NCBI RefSeq assembly: GCF_014930455.1 | Contig: NZ_JAAIYO010000013.1 | Coordinates: forward strand, 1 to 64,000 | Source of the DNA: Corallococcus soli | GTDB lineage: Bacteria > Myxococcota > Myxococcia > Myxococcales > Myxococcaceae | DNA: 64,000 nt | Reading direction: 5' to 3' | Part shown: positions 1,996 to 11,432 of the stretch, piece by piece | How the letters are laid out: the number at the start of each line of letters is the position of its first letter | How positions within the stretch are numbered: the stretch's first letter is position 1 | The notes under the pieces: generated by a model | Seen by the model: only the letters and a program-made list of their open reading frames with translations | The model's database searches: none | What the model was told of the DNA's origin: nothing | Program-made: the position numbers and the translations under genes

Positions 1996-2946
1996 ATGTC
2001 ATCGAAAACGCCCGGGCTTGCTCCTGCTCTCGATTTGAACGGGCTTGCTCGCTTCGCGGCAGTGGTCGAGCACGGAGGTTTCAGCGCGGCCGCCCGGGTG
2101 CTCGGTCTGCCGCGACAGGTGGTGCATCGCAGCGTGGCCGGGTTGGAGGCGACCGCGGGCACGGCGCTGCTCGAGCGCAGCGGCGGTCGCGTGCGTGTGA
2201 CCGACGCCGGGCAGCGCCTATGGATTCACGCCGCCGCCATCCTGTCCGAAGCACGGGCTGCTCGGGCGAACATGGCGGCGGCGCGAAGCCGCCCACGCGG
2301 CCGGCTGCGCCTGACCGCGCCGCATCTGTTCGCTGAGCATTTCCTGGGTCGCTCGATCCAGGACTTCCTGCTCGCGTGGCCGGATGTCGAGATCGACGCC
2401 AGTCTCACGGTGGCCAGGAACAACCTGATCCGCGAAGAGCTCGACCTGGCGATTCGCCTCGGGCCTCGACCGAGCGAGCCCGGGTTCGTGGTGTCGCTGG
2501 GAACCCTTGGGCAGACGTGCTGCGCGTCGCCAGCGTACCTCGCGCGTGCCGGCACTCCAACGAGCCCGCATGAGCTGGGAAACCACGCGCTGGCGCTCTA
2601 CGGCAGCGCGAACGCCCAACCCCGCCTGGAGTTCCAGCGGCGCGGTGAATCGGTCTCGGTCGCGGTTCGCCCGCGTTTGCGAATCGACAGCGCGCGTGTG
2701 GCCCTCTCGGCGTGCCGTGCAGGGGTGGGCATCGCATGGCTGCCGGAGTTCCTCTGCGCGGACGAACTCGAGAGCCGTTCGCTGGTGCGCATCCTCCCGG
2801 ACTGGGAACTGCCGCGCGCGCCGGTCTGGGCGTTCTCGGTCGTATCCCTGAAGCGCAACGCAACGCTGCGAGCTTTCGTGGAACTCGTGCAAGCGCACCT
2901 CTCCACGTTCGAGCAAGCCTTCGACTCTCGCACGCGGAACAGGTGA
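1996..2946 (+). CDS. LysR family transcriptional regulator
   Basis: A 316-residue LysR-type regulator. The N-terminal winged helix-turn-helix (about residues 8-68) has the standard 'LARFAAVVEHGGFSAAARVLG' pattern, followed by the linker helix and a substrate-binding domain (from about residue 90, 'RLRLTAPHLF'), ending in the 'W-F-V-...-FVEL' C-terminus. The ATG at 1996 is chosen because 'AGAAGGAG' sits just upstream; an earlier in-frame ATG at 1960 would add a non-conserved extension over this site. It lies downstream of, not divergent from, the pirin gene, a slightly unusual arrangement. The inducer is unknown. Confidence 0.9.
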   Translation: MSSKTPGLAPALDLNGLARFAAVVEHGGFSAAARVLGLPRQVVHRSVAGLEATAGTALLERSGGRVRVTDAGQRLWIHAAAILSEARAARANMAAARSRPRGRLRLTAPHLFAEHFLGRSIQDFLLAWPDVEIDASLTVARNNLIREELDLAIRLGPRPSEPGFVVSLGTLGQTCCASPAYLARAGTPTSPHELGNHALALYGSANAQPRLEFQRRGESVSVAVRPRLRIDSARVALSACRAGVGIAWLPEFLCADELESRSLVRILPDWELPRAPVWAFSVVSLKRNATLRAFVELVQAHLSTFEQAFDSRTRNR

Positions 2947-3002
2947 CAAGGCCCGGGCTGACGCTCTCGTTGCGTCAGGCACAGGCCCAACCCCCATCAG
3001 CC

Positions 3003-3815
3003 CTACGGCTTCTTCACATCAAACGAAACCAGCTCCTCCGTCCGTTCCCCCTCCTCGCGGACCTTGCCCACGCCGGGAACGAGCCAGTACATGCGCTGCT
3101 TCTCCTCCTTCACCTCGCCGTTCTTGTTCAGCTTGTCGCGCTGGACCTTCACGGCGTTGGTGAACGTGCCTGCGGGCGTCGTCACCGTCACGTCCTTCGC
3201 GAGCACCTTCCAGACGTAGGTGGGGTCCTTCCCCTCCGTCCCGCCCGCGTCATACGTAATCAGCTCGCGCACCGCGTCCTGGTGCTCCCAGGGCACGGAG
3301 ACCGGCGCCGTCGCCAGCGACTTCATCATCGCCGGGGACCAGGTCGTGGCCCTCGTGCGCAGGCCGTCCGTGAGGTCCTCCTCACGCAGGCGCACCACCA
3401 ATCCGTTCGTCAGCTCCAACTGCCAGGAGTTCTCCTCGTACACGGTGCCCGTCGTCGCCGTGCGGTCCTGCTTGCTGTGCACCTTGATGGCCGTCATCTG
3501 GGTCTCCGGCACCGTCTCCGGCCCCAGCACCGTCACCGTCTTGTTGAACACCCCGCTCACCGGGTCGTCGATGCGGTAGCTCCACGTCGAGCCCTGCGTC
3601 AGCGGCCACAGCTTCGTGAACTCCGCCTGCGGGTTCTCCCCGTCGGTCTTCGTGCCGCCCGGCTGCACCGCGTCCCCCGGCAGGTCCACCGTGCCGTCCG
3701 GATTCGTCGTGGGCGCGCCCGGGTCGTTCCCCGTGGGCAGGCTTCCGGCGCCACCACCACACGCCACCAGGGAGCCACACGCCGCGAACAGCACCGCCAA
3801 GTTCCTGAACTTCAT
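3003..3815 (-). CDS. putative lipoprotein, last gene of VTC/DUF4956 operon
   Basis: A 270-residue secreted lipoprotein. The N-terminus has a short hydrophobic signal with lipobox 'SLVAC' followed by a Gly/Pro/Asp-rich linker. The rest is a beta-rich domain with 'WPLTQGSTWSYRI' and 'VWKVLAKDVTVTTPAGTF', a pattern seen in myxobacterial lipoproteins annotated only as hypothetical. The start ATG overlaps the stop of the upstream DUF4956 gene in an ATGA arrangement, so the two are translationally coupled. That coupling suggests it is a surface or periplasmic partner of the operon. No catalytic motif is visible. Confidence 0.8.
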   Translation of the reverse strand: MKFRNLAVLFAACGSLVACGGGAGSLPTGNDPGAPTTNPDGTVDLPGDAVQPGGTKTDGENPQAEFTKLWPLTQGSTWSYRIDDPVSGVFNKTVTVLGPETVPETQMTAIKVHSKQDRTATTGTVYEENSWQLELTNGLVVRLREEDLTDGLRTRATTWSPAMMKSLATAPVSVPWEHQDAVRELITYDAGGTEGKDPTYVWKVLAKDVTVTTPAGTFTNAVKVQRDKLNKNGEVKEEKQRMYWLVPGVGKVREEGERTEELVSFDVKKP

Positions 3816-4531
3816 GCCATCTCCTCCCGCGCGCCCTTGGCGCTCACCGACGTCCACCGCAACCCCCGCAGGGATGCCCCTTCCGTCTTGCCCAACGCCG
3901 CCGCCAGTGTCCCGGGCTCCGGCTCTTCCACTTCCAATTCCAACCGCCTCGCGGAGAAGTCCAACGCGCAGCTCTTCACCATCACGTTGCGCTCCCCCAG
4001 CGCCTGGCGCAGCGTCGCCTCCGCGCCCACCAGGTCGTCCGACTGCGCCGACAACACCAGCCGCTGCTTCGCGCCCGCCGTCGGCGCCGCCTTCTTCTCG
4101 AACAAATCCAACACCAGCAGCAGCACCATCACGAACGCCGTGCCCACGCTCGCCAGCACCAGGTTGCCGTGGCCACACGCCATGCCCAGGCCAATCACCA
4201 GGAACAGGATGGCCGCGTCGCGCGGGTCCTTCAGCCCCGAGCGGAACCGCACGAAGCCGCCCAGCCCCACCAGGCCGAACGCCTTCGCCACGCTGTCGCC
4301 AATCACGGCCGTAATCACCGCCGCCGCCGCGCAGAGGAGGATCTGCGCCTGCACCATCTCCGACTTCGGCAGCGGCTTGCCCATCACGAGCCGCCAGGGC
4401 CGCGACGACAGCAGCGCTCCAATGAGCGCCGCCGCCAGCAGCCGGGGCAGCATCGACGCCATCGACAGCGACTGAAGCTCCCGCTCCACATCCTGGAACA
4501 TCGTCGCGAACGGACCTTCCATGGGCGTCAT
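3812..4531 (-). CDS. DUF4956 domain membrane protein
   Basis: A 239-residue protein matching the DUF4956 pattern: four hydrophobic segments between about residues 28 and 150 ('LLAAALIGALL', 'AQILLCAAAAVITAVIG', 'AAILFLVIGLGMACG', 'GTAFVMVLLLVLDLF') with the conserved loop 'FGLVGLGGFVRFRSGLKDP'. A cytoplasmic alpha/beta C-terminal domain follows. In other bacteria DUF4956 genes often accompany VTC-domain and CotH genes; its function is unknown. The ATG (4529-4531) overlaps the stop of the upstream kinase-like gene and the gene's own stop overlaps the next ATG, giving two ATGA couplings in a row. A second ATG three codons downstream is possible. Confidence 0.85.
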   Translation of the reverse strand: MTPMEGPFATMFQDVERELQSLSMASMLPRLLAAALIGALLSSRPWRLVMGKPLPKSEMVQAQILLCAAAAVITAVIGDSVAKAFGLVGLGGFVRFRSGLKDPRDAAILFLVIGLGMACGHGNLVLASVGTAFVMVLLLVLDLFEKKAAPTAGAKQRLVLSAQSDDLVGAEATLRQALGERNVMVKSCALDFSARRLELEVEEPEPGTLAAALGKTEGASLRGLRWTSVSAKGAREEMA

Positions 4532-6240
4532 GCCTCCTGCCGTCCCATGTCCGCCGCGGCCGGCTCCACGCCGGGCCGCGCTGCGCGTCCCGCCTGCTCC
4601 AGCGCCCGGGCCTGCGCCACCACCGCATAGGCGTTGCGCAGCACCGGCAGCTTTCCGTCCTGCTCGGAGATCACCCGCTCCAGCAGCGCGCGCGTCTCCG
4701 CCACCAGCGGCAGCCCGCGCATGGAGGACACCACCGTCGCCGGCCACCGGCGCGCCGCCGAGGCCCGCAGCTTCCACGCCCGCGGGTCATCCATCCCGTC
4801 CACGGAGTCCAGCGCCTCCTTCGTCTGCAGCGCCCCCCGCTCGCGCAGCTCCCACGCCCGGGGTGAATCCACGCCGGTGAGCGAGCGCAACACCAGCTTC
4901 AGCGCGCCCTTCTCCAACTGCTCGCGCAGGCCCAGCGCCAGCGGCGTCTCCAGCCCCGTGGTGCTCTTGAGCACCGCCAGCCGGTCGTGCTTGAGCAGCA
5001 CCTCGCGCAGCGCGTCCGCGCGCTCCGTGGCGAGGCCGCCCAGGCTGCGCGCCACCTCCGAGTACAGCTTGCGCTGCATGCCCGCCTCGCGGACCACCCA
5101 GGACTCCTCGCCATCCACCCCGGCGAGCCCCAGCAGCACCGCGCCCAGGTGGCCATCCCTCATGCCCCGCTCGCGCAGCGCCCACGCCTCCGGCGCGTCC
5201 TGGCGCTTGAGCCCCTCCAGCACGGCGGCCGGCGCCTGCGCGTACAGCCGCTGCCTGAGGGCGTGCGAGCGCGGGGAGGTGACGAACCCCAGGCCCTCCG
5301 CCACGTCCACCGGCACGCTCGCCGCCAGCACCTCGCGCAGCGTCCAGGCCGTGTCGTCGTCCAGGCCCACCAAGCTGCGCGCCACCAGCCCCGGCAGCCG
5401 CTCCGCGTACGCCAGCCGGCGCTGGTGCGCGGGCAGGCCCGGGATGCCATTGAGCAGCCACACGGCCAGCTGCGGCTCGCGCGCCTCCAGGCTGTCCAGA
5501 GCGTGGAAGAAGCGCTGCTCCACGTCGTCCACCGATGGCGCGCCCGGCATGGGCAGGGCAGGGGCCGGCACCAGCCGCTGCACCGGCTGCTCGCGACCCT
5601 CCAGCCGCGCGACGACGGCCTCCACCAGGCGCTGCTCCAGCACGCGCAGGGGCTGGTCGTTGTTCTCCAGGATGATCCACCGCGCGGGGTCCTTGCGGGC
5701 CTGCTCCAGGAAGGCCTCGCGCACGCGCACCGCCAGCCCCGCGCCCACCAGCCCCTTGCGGCTGTCCGTGTCGTTGGCGCGCCCGCTCTGCACCTTGCCC
5801 AGCCGCTTGCGCAGCCGCGCCAGCTCCGGATCCACGTCCACCAGGATGACCAGGTCCGGCCACAGGCCCTGCGAGGCCAGCTCGCACGCGGGCAGCAGCG
5901 CGCCTTCCTTCAGGCCCCGGCCCCCCGCCGTCAGCGCGAGCTGCGAGTACAGGTAGCGGTCGGTGATGCACACCTCGCCCCGCTTGAGCGAGGGCGCGAT
6001 GATCTCCTCCAGTTGCTGCGCGTCCCGCGCCAGGTTCAGGAAGAACTCGGCGCGCGGCCCCATCTCCAGCAGGCGCGAGTCCCGCGTCAGTTCACGGATG
6101 CGCCGCGCCGTGGGCGACTGCAGTTCGCCGCCTTCCCGCGCATGCGCCACTTTGTAGCCCAGCCGCTTGAGCCGCGCGGCGAGGAGGTTGGACAGCGTCG
6201 TCTTGCCGCTGCCGTCGATGCCTTCGAAGTCGATGAACAC
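4528..6240 (-). CDS. thymidylate-kinase-like P-loop protein fused to ~27-residue repeats
   Basis: A 570-residue fusion. Residues 1 to about 215 have the dTMP-kinase fold signature: P-loop 'GIDGSGKT' (7-14), DR-Y at 94-96, and 'PDLVILVDVDPELARLRKR'. True dTMP kinases have REPGG near residue 35; here it is REGG, and the usual SSxAYQ after DRY is replaced by 'YSQLALT', so substrate preference is doubtful. From about residue 255 to the end lie roughly nine helical repeats of 26-28 residues, each with an 'AW-x-LRE' core. Housekeeping dTMP kinases are about 210 residues, so the C-terminal half is extra. It sits between the VTC and DUF4956 genes, which argues for a role in that system rather than dTTP synthesis. 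The gene symbol tmk is therefore withheld. Confidence 0.8.
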   Translation of the reverse strand: MFIDFEGIDGSGKTTLSNLLAARLKRLGYKVAHAREGGELQSPTARRIRELTRDSRLLEMGPRAEFFLNLARDAQQLEEIIAPSLKRGEVCITDRYLYSQLALTAGGRGLKEGALLPACELASQGLWPDLVILVDVDPELARLRKRLGKVQSGRANDTDSRKGLVGAGLAVRVREAFLEQARKDPARWIILENNDQPLRVLEQRLVEAVVARLEGREQPVQRLVPAPALPMPGAPSVDDVEQRFFHALDSLEAREPQLAVWLLNGIPGLPAHQRRLAYAERLPGLVARSLVGLDDDTAWTLREVLAASVPVDVAEGLGFVTSPRSHALRQRLYAQAPAAVLEGLKRQDAPEAWALRERGMRDGHLGAVLLGLAGVDGEESWVVREAGMQRKLYSEVARSLGGLATERADALREVLLKHDRLAVLKSTTGLETPLALGLREQLEKGALKLVLRSLTGVDSPRAWELRERGALQTKEALDSVDGMDDPRAWKLRASAARRWPATVVSSMRGLPLVAETRALLERVISEQDGKLPVLRNAYAVVAQARALEQAGRAARPGVEPAAADMGRQEA

Positions 6241-6246
6241 GGTGCC

Positions 6247-6966
6247 CTATCCCCCTACAACCCCAACCCCGGCCGAAGCGAAGGCATGCACCCTCGCCAT
6301 TCCTTCCGCGAACTTGCTGTAGGCCGGCGCGCCCCCCGGATTGAGGGCCGCCAGCCACTCGGGCAGTTCCGCCCCGAGGTGCTTCACCTCCACCACCACC
6401 CGCGAGTCCTCCCACACCGGCAATCCCAGACGCTCCACCGTCAGCGCGACTGGCGACAACGCCAGCTCCGGCGACACCTGGTGGAAGCCGATGCCCCGGT
6501 CCACCGTCACCCGCCACGCCTGTGACACCTGATACACGTGCCGCCGGTACGTCACCGCCAGCACCGGCATCAGGCTGCCGCCCGCGATGAGCGGCAACAG
6601 GCTCACGCCGCCGCGAATGGCCCGGCCCAGCTCCGCGCGGGGCACCCACACCCGGCGCTTCTGCGTGAGCCCGCCGCGCTCGCGCTTCACCTCCAGCACC
6701 ACGCGCTCGCGGCCCGCCGCGCCCACGTCCGGCGAGTACTCCTTCGTCCTCACCTTGATGCAGTTGTCCGGCGTGAGCACCGCGCGCTCCGCCAGGGGAA
6801 GCCCCGGCTTGTCGAAGTACACCGACACGATGCGCGTGGGCGGTGGCAGGCACCCCCCCAGGTCCTGCGACAGCCGCGTGCACACCGCGGCGGCCTCGGT
6901 GCCCTCCAGCACCACCTTGAATTCACGGCGCAGCTTGGTGACTCCGCCTTCAGCGAACGAGAGCAT
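6247..6966 (-). CDS. VTC-domain protein (polyphosphate polymerase fold)
   Basis: A 239-residue soluble protein with the triphosphate-tunnel pattern of VTC domains: 'KLRREFKVVL' at the N-terminus, 'SVYFDKP', 'IKVRTKEY', 'LEVKRERGGLTQKRRVWV', 'VTVDRGIGF', 'VVVEVKH' and a terminal 'YSKFAEG'. These alternating basic and acidic strands line the tunnel that binds polyphosphate or nucleotide triphosphate in yeast Vtc4. Bacterial versions are widespread but mostly uncharacterised. It begins 12 bp after the porin-like gene and ends 6 bp before the kinase-repeat gene, so it is the second gene of a five-gene operon. Whether it polymerises polyphosphate is inference. Confidence 0.85.
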   Translation of the reverse strand: MLSFAEGGVTKLRREFKVVLEGTEAAAVCTRLSQDLGGCLPPPTRIVSVYFDKPGLPLAERAVLTPDNCIKVRTKEYSPDVGAAGRERVVLEVKRERGGLTQKRRVWVPRAELGRAIRGGVSLLPLIAGGSLMPVLAVTYRRHVYQVSQAWRVTVDRGIGFHQVSPELALSPVALTVERLGLPVWEDSRVVVEVKHLGAELPEWLAALNPGGAPAYSKFAEGMARVHAFASAGVGVVGG

Positions 6967-6978
6967 GGTCGAGTCTCC

Positions 6979-8253
6979 TCACCGGAAGCGGGTGGCGAGC
7001 TGCAATGACAGCTCGAGCGCGGGCTCCAGGTCCCCGGGCCGGAGCGCACGCTCCGCCTGGACCTGGGCCTTGAAGGAATCCGCCAACAACACGTTGAAGC
7101 CCCCCGTCAGTGCATGTCCCTGTGCCTGGATACCGCCCTGCAATTGCAGGGCCTCCGCGCCCACCATGGGCTGGACGGCCCAACCGCTGTGGCCCACCGG
7201 CACCGTCCAGTACGCCAGCACCGACTGCGACATGAAGGGCCCCAATGCCAGCTGTCCGCGCGCCACCTCGCCCGTCAATGACAGCCCCCAGAGCGTCAGC
7301 TCCGCGTCCGCCGCGGCCGCGTAGCGCTGCGTCCCGTCGATGACCTGCGTGAGGTACGTGCTGGCGCCCACGGTGAGGAACTTGAAGGGCCGCAGGCTCA
7401 GGCGCGCCGCGCCGTCCTCGCTCAGCCGCTCCCCCTGGGGGCCTTCACCGCCCTCGAAGAGGCCCGCGGACAGCTTCAGGCCCCACGCCTCCTTGAGTCG
7501 CACCTCGCCCATCAATCCCAGACGCCGGCCGCCCAGGTCGTTGGTGTCCGTGAGGTAGTCCTCCACCAGGCCGCGCCCCTGGAGCGGCAGGCTCCAGGCC
7601 GACTCCAGCGAGCGCTGGAGGAAGGGCGACTTGAAGCGGCCCGCGTACAGGCGCAGCTGCTTGGCGTCGTTCGCCAGCCGCACGAAGGCGTCCTTGAGGA
7701 TGGTCTTGGAGGCGAGGTCCGCGCTCACCTCCGCCTCCAGGTTGGACAGCGACGCGGCCACGCCCACGCGCGCTGATTCAATGCCCAGGTCGCGCTGGTA
7801 CTTCGCGCGCTCGTCGGCGGTGCCCTTCGCGAACACGCGGCCGAACACGCGGATGCGCTGCGAAGGCTTGCCCTTGTCGTCCGCCTTGTCCGCTTCGGCC
7901 GGGGCCTCGCCCAGTGTGTCCGCCTTGGGGCCCTTGTTCTTCTTCTTCGCGCCCGGCACCGCCGCGTCGGGCACCGGCGCGCCCGGCTCGTTCACCTGCT
8001 CCGGCGCGCCCCGCACCGGACCCTGGGAGCCCCCGGGCATCGCCTGGGCGACGGCGCCATCCAGCGCGTCCTCCGACGTCGGCTCCGGGGCAGGCGCCTG
8101 CGCGCCGTCCTCCTGCGCGACGGCGAGCGGCTGATCCGCGTCCTCCGCCCCCGCGTCCTCCACCGGCTCGGCGACCGCCCCCGCCGGCAGTCCCAGGAGG
8201 ACCGCGACGAGCAGCCCCCGCCACCCCTGTTCCTCCATCCCCCGCCCGCCCAT
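6979..8253 (-). CDS. outer-membrane porin-like protein (phosphate-selective porin O/P type)
   Basis: A 424-residue exported protein. The chosen ATG (8251-8253) follows 'GGGGAG' at good distance and leads into a signal peptide ('GLLVAVLLGLPAGAVA'); an ATG five codons later is possible. Residues about 20-125 are an Ala/Pro/Asp-rich linker. The remainder alternates amphipathic strands, with 'RLYAGRFKSPFLQRSLES', 'GGRRLGLMGEVRL' and a terminal 'LELSLQLATRFR' ending in an arginine after an aromatic, as in 16-stranded barrels. The 'GRFK-P' and repeated beta-strand layout resemble OprO/OprP porins. First gene of the VTC operon. Phosphate selectivity is not shown by the sequence. Confidence 0.7.
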   Translation of the reverse strand: MGGRGMEEQGWRGLLVAVLLGLPAGAVAEPVEDAGAEDADQPLAVAQEDGAQAPAPEPTSEDALDGAVAQAMPGGSQGPVRGAPEQVNEPGAPVPDAAVPGAKKKNKGPKADTLGEAPAEADKADDKGKPSQRIRVFGRVFAKGTADERAKYQRDLGIESARVGVAASLSNLEAEVSADLASKTILKDAFVRLANDAKQLRLYAGRFKSPFLQRSLESAWSLPLQGRGLVEDYLTDTNDLGGRRLGLMGEVRLKEAWGLKLSAGLFEGGEGPQGERLSEDGAARLSLRPFKFLTVGASTYLTQVIDGTQRYAAAADAELTLWGLSLTGEVARGQLALGPFMSQSVLAYWTVPVGHSGWAVQPMVGAEALQLQGGIQAQGHALTGGFNVLLADSFKAQVQAERALRPGDLEPALELSLQLATRFR

Positions 8254-8474
8254 GCCTGATCTCTCCCCGCCCAGATAACCCGACGCCGTACGTCCCTGCC
8301 TGCCCTCCCGTGCAACCCTGGTGCCCAGGGCAGGGACGTGCACTGACGGACATTGGGACGCGGCTTGCGGCCCGGATGCCATGTGACAGGGGCGTGACGG
8401 GACCCAACCTGGGAAGGTTTTTTCCCTGTCGGGGCGGTGCGGGGCTGTAACGCCGGGCTGTAAGAAGGCCGGTG

Positions 8475-9164
8475 TTACCGATCAGCGCGCGGATCCACCG
8501 GTGGGGTGGGGGCGGGCTCCGCCGGGGTTTCGGCTGTGGCTCCGGCGGGCGGCGCGGCGGCGGCTTCGTCCGCGGCGTCGGCGGGGGGCTCGGCGGGGAC
8601 CTCGCGCCGCGTCATGGCGGTCAGCACCCTCAGCAGCAGCAGCACCGCGAAGAGCCCCAGGAGGCTGCGCCACACGAAGAGGGGGACCCCGGTTTCGCTC
8701 ACCGTGAAACGCGCATGGAGCGCCTTGGGGCGGGTGGTGAGGAAGCGGACGTCCACGTCCCAGGCGCCTGGCTCCGGGGGGATGAACTCCGTGCTCCAGC
8801 CCACCGCGTCCTTCTTCAGGGCGCGCGTCACCTGACCGGGCACGCCCTCCTGGGAGAAGGAGACGGTGACGCCCCCTTCAAAGGGGGGGCCCTGGAGGTT
8901 GCCCACCGACAGCGTCAGGCGCAGCGGCTCGCCGGGGTGGGGGTCGGCGGGGGTGATGACACCCTGGAGCCGGTCCTCGGCGTCCTGCCAGCTCAGCGCC
9001 AGCACCTCGTTGCGACGCTCGACCTTGATCAGATCCACCGCCGGGGCGGCGACGGCAGGCAGGGCCAGCAGGCAGGTCGCGACGACCCACCCCAGGAAGG
9101 AGGACGTGCGGCTTTGCCTCGACGGCCGGTGTCCCCTAAGATGCGCTGCCCTGTCACCTTCCAC
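8475..9164 (-). CDS. exported membrane-anchored protein with FixH/YtkA-like domain
   Basis: A 229-residue protein. An N-terminal signal ('WVVATCLLALPAVAA') leads to an Ig-like domain with 'HPGEPLRLTLSVGNLQGPPFEG' and 'FIPPEPGAWDVDVRF', the pattern of YtkA/FixH/CopC-type domains. A C-terminal membrane helix ('FVWRSLLGLFAVLLLLRVL') is followed by an Ala/Pro-rich tail. There is no ATG; the GTG at 9162-9164, preceded by a GGGGAG-like site, is the best start, although the frame is open far upstream through the opposite strand of the kinase gene. It diverges from kinase 1, with only 30 bp between start codons. The function is unknown. Confidence 0.65.
   Translation of the reverse strand: MEGDRAAHLRGHRPSRQSRTSSFLGWVVATCLLALPAVAAPAVDLIKVERRNEVLALSWQDAEDRLQGVITPADPHPGEPLRLTLSVGNLQGPPFEGGVTVSFSQEGVPGQVTRALKKDAVGWSTEFIPPEPGAWDVDVRFLTTRPKALHARFTVSETGVPLFVWRSLLGLFAVLLLLRVLTAMTRREVPAEPPADAADEAAAAPPAGATAETPAEPAPTPPVDPRADR
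9114..9142 (+). promoter_or_regulatory. sigma-70-type promoter for Ser/Thr kinase 1
   Basis: TTGCCT (9114-9119), a 17-bp spacer and TAAGAT (9137-9142), about 50 bp before the kinase start. It overlaps the 5' end of the divergent gene. The match to TTGACA/TATAAT is good for such a GC-rich genome. Confidence 0.55.
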
Positions 9165-9194
9165 TGAGCCCGCTCCCCCCGGGGAGTACCCGGG

Positions 9195-11432
9195 ATGAAC
9201 CCTCAAGCCTTCGGGAAATACCAGCTCCTCAAGAAGCTCGCCACGGGCGGCATGGCCGAGGTCTGGCTTGCGCGTCAGTCCGGAATCGAGGGCTTCCAGA
9301 AGGACGTTGTCGTCAAGCGCATCCTCCCGCACCTGGCGGAGGACCGCGAGTTCGTGGAGATGTTCCGCAACGAGGCGCTGATCGCCGCGCGCTTCAACCA
9401 CCCGAACATCGCGCAGGTGTACGAGTTCGGCGAGGCCAACGGGACCTACTACATCGCCATGGAGTTCATCCATGGCGAGGACCTGGGCCGGGTCATGCGC
9501 AAGGCCAGCGGGATGAACCAGTGGATCGCCCGGCCGCTGGCGGTGCGCATCGTCGCCTCCGCGTGCGAGGGCCTCTTCTACGCGCACACCCGCTCGGATG
9601 ACCGGGGCCAGCCGCTGAACGTGGTGCACCGCGACATCTCCCCGCAGAACATCCTGATCAGCTTTGATGGTTCGGTGAAGCTCGTGGACTTCGGCATCGC
9701 GAAGGCCGCGGATCAGGCGTCGATGACGAAGTCCGGCGCCATCAAGGGCAAGTTCGCGTACATGGCGCCCGAACAGGCCGCCGGCAAGCACCTGGACGCG
9801 CGCGCGGACATCTTCGCCATCGGCCTGGTGCTGTACGAGATGCTCACCGGGCACCGGCCGCTCAAGAAGGACTCGGAGCTGGCCACGCTGCAGGCGGCCA
9901 TGGAGTGCGCCATCCCCGCCCCGTCCGAGGTGGCCGACGTGCCCCGGGACATGGACCACGTGGTGATGCGCGCCCTGGCCAAGAGCGCGGATGATCGCTA
10001 CGACAACGCCCGCGAGCTGCAGTCCTCCCTGGAGGAACTGCTCGTCAACGAGCGCTGGGTGGTGGGCTCGGTGCAGATCTCCGAGCTGATGAAGACGCTC
10101 TTCGCGGACCGGCTGGCGGAGGAGCTGAAGCAGGGCCAGTTCGTCCCGGTGGGCGAGGACTCCAACACGTCGCCGCCCCGTCCGCCCGCGGAGATGAGCT
10201 GGGAGGCCCCGCCGGGCGAGTCGTCGTCGCAGCGCGAGCGCGCGCGCGGCAACACCCGCGCCGGTCCCGCGCCCCGCCGCGCGACGGGCATGGCCCCCGC
10301 GGTCATCCCGGAGGATCCGAACGAGTACGACGCGCCGTCGCTCACGGGCGTGGAGTCCCAGCCGCGCCGCCGCTCCAGCGTGTCGGAGCCGGTGGCCCGC
10401 CGCAGCACGTCCTCCAGCAACCCGGGCGTCACGCAGGTGGCGCGCACCAACTCGCGCTCGGACCTGCGCAGCCAGCCCGTGGACGACGACGACGTGCCTC
10501 CGCCTCCGGTGGCCCGGCGCACGATGTCGCGCGTCATGCAGGTGGCGGAGCCGCCCGTGCGCTCGCGCTCTTCCGGCGTGCAGCGCATGGACGTGGAGGA
10601 GGACGACGAGCGCACCCGCCTGCCTCCTCCGGACGATGAGCCGGAGACGGTGCCGGCGCCCGTCGTGGTGCGGCGGCGCACGAACACCAGCCAGCAGTCC
10701 GCCGTGGATGCGCCGCGCCGGCGCACCTCCAGCCGCGTGGACGCCCCCCGCGCGCGCCCCGCGCCCGTGGACCCGGATGACTCCGGCGAGCGGAGGCCCT
10801 CCCGGAGCAGCGCTGCCGCGGTGCGGGACGAGCCGTCGCGTCCCCGCGGCCAGAGCGTGCGCGCGGTGGCCATGGTGGCCTTCATCGTGGGCCTGCTCGC
10901 GGTGCTGGTGCTCTTCCGCGAGCCCATCCTCGCGGCGGCGACCTCCAAGGCCGCGGACGCGCAGGGCGTGTGGCTCACGGTGAACACCAACCAGCCGGTG
11001 AAGGTGTCGGTGCGGCACACGGAGCGCTGTGGCAGCCCGGAGCCGGTGACGCAGCTGGGCACCGCGCCGCTCACCCGCGCGCAGGGGGCCCACCTGCAGG
11101 ACACGCTCATCCTGGAGAACGAGGCCCAGGGCATCTACCTGGAGGACTCGGAGGAGCTCGCGTTCGGTCAGCCCGGCGAGCTGAAGACCTTCGAGCGCAG
11201 CTTCAAGGAAGGCACCCTCAAGCTGAAGATCACCCCGCGGAACATGTCGGGGCTGACGGTGTTCCGCAACAACCAGCCGCTGGGCAGCGCCTCCACCACG
11301 CTGAAGCTGATGGAGGGCAAGCAGCGGCTGGAGCTGCGGGGCAACAAGCTCAAGGAGCCCGTCGCCTTCGAGGTCATCATCAAGCCGGGTGAGACGACGG
11401 ACCAGGCGCTGGACCTGGAGTCCGCGTTCTAG
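9195..11432 (+). CDS. transmembrane Ser/Thr protein kinase 1
   Basis: A 745-residue Hanks-type kinase. Cytoplasmic kinase domain about residues 5-275: glycine loop 'LATGGMAEVW', lysine in 'VVVKRI', catalytic loop 'HRDISPQN', 'DFGIAK' and an APE motif ('MAPEQA'). The SPQN variant of the catalytic loop is typical of myxobacterial kinases. Residues about 320-550 are an Arg/Ser/Pro-rich linker with acidic clusters. A single membrane helix follows ('AMVAFIVGLLAVLVLF', about 557-575), then a 165-residue extracytoplasmic domain resembling PEGA-type beta domains ('LKLKITPRNMSGLTVFRNNQPLG'). All catalytic residues are present, so it should be active. The substrate is unknown. Confidence 0.9.
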   Translation: MNPQAFGKYQLLKKLATGGMAEVWLARQSGIEGFQKDVVVKRILPHLAEDREFVEMFRNEALIAARFNHPNIAQVYEFGEANGTYYIAMEFIHGEDLGRVMRKASGMNQWIARPLAVRIVASACEGLFYAHTRSDDRGQPLNVVHRDISPQNILISFDGSVKLVDFGIAKAADQASMTKSGAIKGKFAYMAPEQAAGKHLDARADIFAIGLVLYEMLTGHRPLKKDSELATLQAAMECAIPAPSEVADVPRDMDHVVMRALAKSADDRYDNARELQSSLEELLVNERWVVGSVQISELMKTLFADRLAEELKQGQFVPVGEDSNTSPPRPPAEMSWEAPPGESSSQRERARGNTRAGPAPRRATGMAPAVIPEDPNEYDAPSLTGVESQPRRRSSVSEPVARRSTSSSNPGVTQVARTNSRSDLRSQPVDDDDVPPPPVARRTMSRVMQVAEPPVRSRSSGVQRMDVEEDDERTRLPPPDDEPETVPAPVVVRRRTNTSQQSAVDAPRRRTSSRVDAPRARPAPVDPDDSGERRPSRSSAAAVRDEPSRPRGQSVRAVAMVAFIVGLLAVLVLFREPILAAATSKAADAQGVWLTVNTNQPVKVSVRHTERCGSPEPVTQLGTAPLTRAQGAHLQDTLILENEAQGIYLEDSEELAFGQPGELKTFERSFKEGTLKLKITPRNMSGLTVFRNNQPLGSASTTLKLMEGKQRLELRGNKLKEPVAFEVIIKPGETTDQALDLESAF

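Follow-up and report, generated by a model that had tools for sequence, protein, structure and literature searches.

A five-gene operon-like cluster conserved in Myxococcales

The window (the whole 64-kb stretch of DNA that was analysed) carries five consecutive minus-strand genes between positions 3003 and 8253: a porin gene (8253-6979, 424 aa), a VTC gene (6966-6247, 239 aa), a kinase-repeat gene with a GTG start (6240-4528, 570 aa), a DUF4956 gene (4531-3812, 239 aa) and a lipoprotein gene (3815-3003, 270 aa). The porin and VTC genes are separated by 12 bp (6967-6978), the VTC and kinase-repeat genes by 6 bp (6241-6246), and ATGA overlaps occur at the kinase-repeat/DUF4956 and DUF4956/lipoprotein junctions, in full agreement with the gaps, overlaps and coordinates reported in a previous sequence-only reading of this DNA. 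Judged from spacing alone, all five genes would lie on one transcript. A consensus scan of positions 2700-9300, which is little informative for this genome, revealed no sigma-70-like promoter and no terminator.

Because a simple gene caller erred at several high-GC loci, gene order was scored from profile matches to six-frame ORFs. The genes follow one another as porin - VTC - kinase-repeat - DUF4956 - lipoprotein, all on the same strand, at 25 of the 27 loci examined in the family (each genome contributing one, that of the window included), the two exceptions being L035, where the lipoprotein was not detected, and L053, whose contig ends within the kinase gene; at L048 and L052 a contig end cuts the porin gene. 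The five-gene order also mostly recurs in sister families, showing that the set singled out in the sequence-only reading is a conserved linkage in other Myxococcales. Chance adjacency of the five genes was set aside on the basis of this conserved linkage in the family and at other VTC loci of the phylum. Myxococcus xanthus AM003 has the operon (L210), which is followed there by a purple-acid-phosphatase-like gene. In one fragmented genome of the same genus (G019, 960 contigs) a VTC match was not found, fragmentation being the only explanation to hand. Negatives from the phylum search and from the scan of genome contigs are soft, since the former scored the best 14 candidates in most genomes and the latter required exact peptide patterns.

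Predicted properties of the gene products

The VTC protein exceeds the Pfam cut-off for PF09359 (52.6 versus 23 bits, E 6e-14) and a VTC profile matches the yeast Vtc4 structure 3g3q (E 2.6e-8), as expected from the polyphosphate-polymerase fold that had been ascribed to it. In the excerpted text of PMC9911596, the yeast Vtc4 enzyme is described as impaired when R264, R266 and E426 are altered together. The Vtc4 profile alignment maps these residues to R73, K75 and E193, such that R266 of Vtc4 corresponds to a lysine in the operon protein. Together with K94, R142, D156, K195, S217 and K218, they are kept in 14/14 operon VTC proteins, and the alignment therefore upholds the catalytic and basic tunnel positions on which the earlier proposal hinged. 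Fold and kept catalytic residues lead us to infer that the VTC protein is a candidate polyphosphate polymerase. Pfam detected the VTC domain alone in this 239-aa protein, with neither an SPX nor a fused membrane domain, and hydropathy analysis revealed a single hydrophobic stretch (residues 120-138) that lies within the VTC domain, with none after it.

The kinase-repeat protein comprises a thymidylate-kinase-like P-loop domain (5611-6240, minus strand) and a helical repeat domain at about residues 237-552 (4585-5532, minus strand), as delimited by AF2 secondary structure and autocorrelation. Within the P-loop EGIDGSGKTT (6196-6225, minus strand), G-I-D-G-x-G-K is invariant in 20 aligned sequences. 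A thymidylate-kinase-like P-loop protein in mid-operon had been predicted earlier and was recovered here by Pfam (Thymidylate_kin, E 9e-26, over cut-off), by TIGR00041 (94.7 bits versus a cut-off of 83.25) and by the match of the AF2 model (mean pLDDT 90.3) to 4edh (VIA Z 27.3). In a fold search with the fusion model, the kinase domain filled the match list. Autocorrelation gave a period of 27 residues for the alpha-hairpin repeats that lie C-terminal to the kinase domain. The protein resembles bacterial dTMP kinase (Tmk) in fold, P-loop and the DR motif (present in the alignment), but differs from it by these C-terminal repeats and by the absence of the AYQ motif of the thymidylate pocket. 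AYQ occurs in 0/20 aligned sequences and is present in T. thermophilus Tmk (chain 5x98_B) and in the two standard paralogues over the Tmk cut-off, which lie at two further loci of the genome. With AYQ lost and two other loci above the Tmk cut-off, a dTMP kinase assignment was set aside: the fusion is probably not a dTMP kinase and probably has a changed acceptor pocket. A PPK2 identity was also set aside for want of a Pfam match, PPK2 not being among the nine Pfam families listed at E up to 1.

The porin has a signal peptide and a low-complexity linker until about residue 130, followed by a 16-strand barrel (AF2 model, barrel blocks at pLDDT 83-97). None of the Pfam or NCBIfam families, PF07396 (Porin_O_P) included, matched the porin itself, and PF07396 is matched by 6/15 members of its alignment (best 7e-14), the window protein not being among the six. 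The best Foldseek match of the model is OprO (4rjw, E 6.5e-12), with general porins ranking close behind, while VIA Z reached 29.8 for OprP and 29.6 for OprO and at most 25.2 (about 4 lower) for other porins. The OprO/P likeness claimed in the sequence-only reading thus holds for the fold and for the family of the relatives, but not for a PF07396 match of the window porin, and both this miss and the proximity of general porins in Foldseek count against the envelope-spanning model proposed below. Through its relatives and fold, we identify it as a predicted OprO/P-type porin, with polyphosphate as its putative substrate. It shares with Pseudomonas OprP and OprO the barrel fold, these being its best PDB matches, but is only 14 percent identical to them, has a long pre-barrel linker and is encoded next to a candidate polymerase in the same cluster.

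At the other end of the operon, the lipoprotein displays LVAC at Cys19 (by eye), presumably its lipobox motif, and its only Pfam match is a sub-threshold one to DUF3108_like at the C-terminus; at L110 a lipoprotein of the same family adjoins the porin and scores just over the DUF3108_like cut-off. The DUF4956 protein matches PF16316 (45.9 versus 30.6 bits, E 7e-12), shows a weak similarity to MgtC that is under the cut-off (E 6.5e-5) and has five hydrophobic peaks, some overlapping, by hydropathy, making it a candidate inner-membrane channel. VTC and DUF4956 occur in one cluster at 21 of 24 other VTC loci of the phylum, and also in clusters described in part of PMC7112168, consistent with the earlier remark that the two are often neighbours.

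A possible envelope-spanning polyphosphate system

We consider it about evenly poised that these genes encode one envelope-spanning phosphate-polymer system, in which polyphosphate made by VTC leaves via DUF4956 and the porin, export being the likelier direction. VTC would use ATP to build polyphosphate on the cytoplasmic side, DUF4956 might carry the chain across the inner membrane in the manner of the fused membrane domain of yeast Vtc4, the OprO/P-type porin would offer passage through the outer membrane and the lipoprotein would be an accessory anchored in the envelope. The P-loop kinase, a thymidylate-kinase relative with a presumably altered acceptor pocket on a helical scaffold, could act on a nucleotide or on the polyphosphate chain itself. 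An envelope-spanning phosphate or polyphosphate system had been suggested before: its linkage and catalytic positions stand, whereas the polyphosphate product, translocation by DUF4956 and direction of transport stay conjectural.

In the yeast VTC complex, making polyphosphate from ATP is coupled to moving it out of the cytosol (excerpts of PMC9911596). The operon resembles this complex in having a VTC domain with kept catalytic positions and, as proposed, in cytoplasmic polymer synthesis followed by passage across a membrane, but its bacterial 239-aa VTC protein has neither SPX nor a fused membrane domain, and the operon instead has a separate DUF4956 membrane protein and an outer-membrane porin. 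PPK1 is also encoded in the window's genome, so the operon is not required for polyphosphate, which weighs against the proposed model.

Conduits and CotH/PPDK_N proteins at related loci

Comparison with 24 other VTC loci of the phylum revealed two features that are new here: an outer-membrane conduit of porin or HlyD/TolC type at 18/24 (Pfam confirms part) and CotH kinases or PPDK_N ATP-grasp proteins (by Pfam) at 18/24. The conduit is a porin at 11 loci, HlyD with a TolC-like protein at L060, L061, L104, L105 and L107, and HlyD alone, close to a contig end, at L106 and L108. CotH alone was found by Pfam at 13/24, including all 5 order-level loci examined, and several CotH/PPDK_N proteins have lipobox-like N-termini (by eye). 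An own-profile PPDK_N-like match at L106 that Pfam did not confirm was left out of the counts, and L113, where CotH was matched by our own profile only (a stretch with a stop), was not scored as CotH and was counted via PPDK_N. The order-level loci retain porin-VTC-kinase-repeat-DUF4956 in 5/5 cases, with the lipoprotein detected in three (L100, L101 and L103) and no match to it at L102 by profile search; at L099 a CotH gene lies immediately 3' of DUF4956. The sequence-only reading had missed the CotH/PPDK_N link, as well as the upstream repeat described below.

Export is favoured in the proposed system because an HlyD/TolC conduit replaces the porin at some sister VTC-DUF4956 loci and because many loci adjoin CotH/PPDK_N, which would use an extracytoplasmic phosphoryl donor. 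A more specific and, in our estimation, unlikely version is that VTC-DUF4956 serves diderms as a fuel line: the polymer made in the cytoplasm would be polyphosphate or else a nucleotide polyphosphate that the kinase-repeat protein completes, and it would pass via DUF4956 and the OprO/P porin or HlyD/TolC conduit to the cell surface, where, without ATP, it would be the phosphoryl donor for CotH kinases and PPDK_N ATP-grasp lipoproteins. CotH is absent from the window's own cluster and has 2 copies elsewhere in the genome, which counts against the envelope-spanning model. Three genomes of Planctomycetota have the order barrel-like protein - VTC - kinase-repeat, which speaks for the model, in clusters whose first gene encodes a Lamin-Tail-Domain protein. 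The placement of DUF4956 there counts against it: DUF4956 does not adjoin these clusters, and away from them one genome has a match over the cut-off, another a match below it and the third none. On the contigs that carry these clusters (53.7, 64.1 and 7.7 kb) there is no CotH match, the genomes have 12, 32 and 25, and in G197 a second VTC shares a contig (C371) with a CotH match.

A VTC-DUF4956-CotH core has a precedent in Gram-positive bacteria: according to excerpts of PMC7112168, cotH - polyphosphate polymerase - DUF4956 accessory genes lie next to Pel clusters there. The operon is similar in clustering a VTC-type polymerase with DUF4956, CotH being present at 13/24 other loci, but relative to the cassette as given in these excerpts it adds the OprO/P porin, the kinase-repeat fusion and the lipoprotein, and it lacks CotH in the window's cluster and noticeable Pel genes. 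These shared core genes, and the CotH counts including 5/5 order-level loci, could point to an accessory set that makes or phosphorylates a surface polymer, with the phosphate chain as a means only; yet inspection by eye of the operon and its close surroundings showed no polysaccharide synthase and CotH is unlinked in the window's genome. We take this reading to be decidedly unlikely.

A PhoB-box-like repeat upstream of the operon

A direct repeat resembling a PhoB box, CCGTCAC-GCCC-CTGTCAC (8383-8400, minus strand), lies 147 bp ahead of the porin start and is the sole match with at most one mismatch within the 64-kb window. It fits a degenerate PhoB-box pattern exactly, the genome having 2 such matches, and scored p 0.0013 with a matrix built on the boxes of phoB-pstS loci, which comprises only boxes found in this analysis. 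Such repeats precede the operon in 8/8 regions of the window's genus (p <=0.0077) and in 14/28 overall (p <0.05; L003, without upstream sequence, was left out). In the window's genus the operon is probably expressed under PhoB. Their absence from half of the 28 upstream regions counts against the model. In some relatives phoB and pstS are separated by a gene that is porin-like, to judge from its C-terminus and where it lies.

These data bear on a scavenging role in phosphate starvation, in which the porin would import polyphosphate or pyrophosphate, DUF4956 would work inward and VTC and the kinase would convert the import to nucleotide phosphates. OprO/P porins are uptake channels that become more abundant when phosphate is limiting (PMC9769906, in part), which also counts against export, and the porin-like gene between phoB and pstS, the same class of box ahead of the operon in the window's genus and the phosphatase-like gene 3' of the operon in M. 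xanthus AM003 agree with uptake. Opposed to it are the outward coupling of synthesis and translocation in yeast VTC (PMC9911596, in part), the replacement of the porin by HlyD/TolC-type genes at sister loci and the CotH/PPDK_N neighbours, which it leaves without explanation; we regard scavenging as possible but somewhat unlikely.

Triphosphate-tunnel proteins include phosphatases and cyclases, and the Pho-box-like repeat would also suit genes that are merely co-regulated in phosphate starvation without a shared machine, the VTC-domain protein being a small phosphohydrolase or sensor. Against this, the arrangement of the genes and the uncommon kinase-repeat fusion are conserved across families and in another phylum, beyond what co-regulation by itself would require, and we hold this explanation to be very unlikely.

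Implications

If export through an envelope-spanning system is the true reading, the operon would be a bacterial counterpart to the eukaryotic VTC principle that spans two membranes and exists alongside PPK1. It would also offer a hypothesis on the function of DUF4956 and of a thymidylate-kinase relative scoring above the curated dTMP kinase cut-off. The linkage of related loci to CotH/PPDK_N would open to direct testing the question of what serves secreted bacterial kinases as phosphoryl donor outside the cytoplasm, and since M. xanthus carries the operon, a genetic model is at hand for testing the proposal.

Gene order and conservation of the operon

The five minus-strand genes that the sequence-only reading had placed at 8253-3003 were recovered at the same coordinates, with the 12-bp and 6-bp gaps and two ATGA overlaps that it had claimed. 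They encode a porin (8253-6979), a VTC protein (6966-6247), a kinase-repeat protein (6240-4528) and a DUF4956 protein (4531-3812), the last three matching Pfam VTC, Thymidylate_kin and DUF4956 over cut-off, and a lipoprotein (3815-3003) with only a sub-threshold DUF3108_like match. The porin gave no family match in a search of Pfam and curated families. Two genes read by eye lie upstream of the operon and recur in a majority of the longer loci of the family: one for a small exported/membrane protein (about 9140-8475), the other, divergent, for a Ser/Thr kinase (9195-11432).

The cluster is conserved. The VTC protein found a match in 72 of 96 Myxococcaceae genomes, 67 of them near full-length relatives of at least 51% identity and the remaining five weak. 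Porin, VTC and kinase-repeat genes occur together in all 30 loci of about 3.5-3.7 kb, drawn from 30 of these 67 genomes with the window's own counted in. In a second set of 27 family loci (4.7-20 kb), all five genes kept one order and strand in 25, the exceptions being L035, without a detected lipoprotein, and L053, which stops inside the kinase gene. VTC was also present in six genomes from other families of Myxococcales, and the five of these loci examined (L099-L103) all carry porin-VTC-kinase-repeat-DUF4956. The lipoprotein was detected in L100, L101 and L103, a CotH lipoprotein gene takes its position at L099, and a search for it at L102 gave no match. When the kinase-repeat alignment was compared with contigs of 84,980 species, 36 loci emerged, including Myxococcus xanthus and three Planctomycetota with the order Lamin-Tail-Domain protein, protein of about 500 aa, VTC, kinase-repeat. 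The 500-aa protein, for which a Pfam search returned no match, is a candidate outer-membrane barrel, judged by eye from two sequences ending in Phe. At L208 (BNCN01000003.1), the operon, with a 73% identical kinase, sits in an entry named Comamonas sp. KCTC 72670, apparently a Myxococcus-type genome under the wrong label. The operon of M. xanthus AM003 is followed by a purple-acid-phosphatase-like gene that also encodes a PKD domain (L210:8946-10577).

Passages of published work describe a cotH-polyphosphate polymerase-DUF4956 cassette beside Gram-positive Pel clusters (PMC7112168) and, for Clostridium perfringens, VTC close to CotH (PMC2879425). A table of the latter (CP4_0460-0465) has, next to VTC and CotH, membrane proteins of 222-226 aa under the name 'tubulin/FtsZ', which by size and position are probably DUF4956 proteins. 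We found no open-licence PMC paper containing both 'VTC domain' and 'DUF4956' and, among the matches listed from that literature, no title, abstract opening or passage describing the five-gene set. Because the VTC-DUF4956-CotH cassette is already in print and the five-gene set was not found described in these open-licence sources, novelty is confined to a variant of the published cassette.

Features of the encoded proteins

The VTC site is kept. Yeast Vtc4 was the first PDB match of an 18-protein VTC profile (3g3q, E 2.6e-8), its R264, R266 and E426 aligning with R73, K75 and E193 of the window protein; a passage of PMC9911596 reports that the triple change R264A/R266A/E426N was used to impair the yeast enzyme. 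These three residues, together with Y50, F51, D52, E92, K94, R142, D156, K195, S217 and K218, are kept in 14/14 operon VTC proteins and only partly in four distant paralogues. Since the operon proteins keep all these positions, the tunnel predicted from them looks intact.

The porin has an OprO/P fold. Its AF2 model contains a confident 16-strand barrel starting at about residue 131. Foldseek ranked OprO top (E 6.5e-12) with general porins not far behind, and VIA scored OprP at Z 29.8 (rmsd 2.7, 292 aligned), OprO at 29.6 and the next porins at 25.2, thereby separating OprP/OprO from general porins for the modelled barrel. Pfam Porin_O_P matched 6 of 15 alignment members (best 7e-14) and not the window porin itself. 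At 14% identity to OprP/OprO, its selectivity is not deducible.

In the AF2 model of the kinase-repeat protein (mean pLDDT 90.3), residues 1-217 adopt a thymidylate kinase fold (VIA Z 27.3 to 4edh) and the rest forms an alpha-hairpin array with a 27-residue period (self-identity by autocorrelation 0.198 at spacing 27, while no other spacing between 15 and 44 exceeded 0.117). The kinase pocket motif is altered: AYQ has a role in thymidylate binding, and AYQG is missing in the alignment from the operon kinase and 19 relatives. Two further TIGR00041 loci over cut-off in the window's genome both keep AYQG. In one of these two paralogues (L064, G000:C8:351718-352299), Thr replaces the P-loop Lys (GLDGAGTTT).

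Related VTC loci and the proposed direction of transport

Related loci are linked to CotH or PPDK_N proteins and to conduits. The wider sample comprised 24 other VTC loci of Myxococcota. Eight are second copies or come from further genera within Myxococcaceae (L047, L054, L060, L061, L104, L105, L115, L116), and 16 are from outside that family (L099-L103, L106-L114, L117, L118), the four f3 loci among the 24 representing one genus and hence not independent. DUF4956 lies in the cluster at 21/24 and was not found at the second copy of L047, at L054 or at L109. Pfam confirmed CotH or PPDK_N at 18/24 (L060, L061, L099-L105, L107, L110, L112-L118), CotH at 13 and PPDK_N at 7, with both at L112 and L115. 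As CotH is rare, with 2 to 6 matches per genome in the four myxobacterial genomes counted, we do not take its linkage to VTC for chance. Several CotH and PPDK_N proteins begin, by eye, with lipobox-like signal peptides. At L060, L061, L104, L105, L112, L113 and L115 the PPDK_N ATP-grasp domain is C-terminal, in several of these proteins behind a lipobox-like start, which is an odd location for an ATP-binding domain.

Our own profiles detected a conduit at 18/24, either a porin (L099-L103, L110, L112-L116) or HlyD and/or TolC-like proteins (L060, L061, L104-L108, with the contig ending within L106 and L108); Pfam confirmed the porin at L110 and L115 and HlyD or TolC-like proteins at L061, L104, L106 and L107, the others resting on our own profiles. 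The second-copy locus L115 unites CotH, VTC, a porin that barely clears the PF07396 cut-off, kinase-repeat, DUF4956, lipoproteins, PPDK_N and a member of the operon's own lipoprotein family. It is mainly because HlyD/TolC substitutes for the porin in these sister loci that we infer export as the direction of transport.

The alternative, import, draws mainly on the OprO/P family of the porin and on a Pho-box-like repeat. CCGTCAC-GCCC-CTGTCAC precedes the porin gene and is the only match in the 64 kb to CTGTCAY-N4-CTGTCAY with at most one mismatch. Genome-wide, the degenerate pattern has 27 such matches, where the reversed control has 4; two of its matches are exact, one of them before the operon porin. 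One of the 27 is flanked by a response-regulator gene on one side and a PstS gene on the other, a pair read by eye as putative phoB and pstS. In relatives, the gene before pstS is that regulator in some loci and a porin-like gene in others; of the latter arrangement, 9 of 12 loci examined have a box of the same class, in five directly after the called regulator gene, and none was found at L181, L182 and L184. With a matrix built from 15 boxes at such regulator/pstS loci, the operon upstream region scored p <0.05 in 14 of 28 regions and not in the other 14. The positives comprise 8/8 from the window's genus (p <=0.0077) and six from three other genera, the p-values being uncorrected, the repeat first spotted by eye and the genus members not independent. 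Genome sites at L125 and L142, CTGACATAAGGCTGTCAY, each lie just 5' of a gene that by eye resembles the glutathione-dependent formaldehyde-activating family.

Under the export reading, the operon's product would be polyphosphate, DUF4956 may act as its channel, and the exported polyphosphate would be used as a donor. PPK1 is present in the window's genome, and the operon would therefore serve a separate pool.
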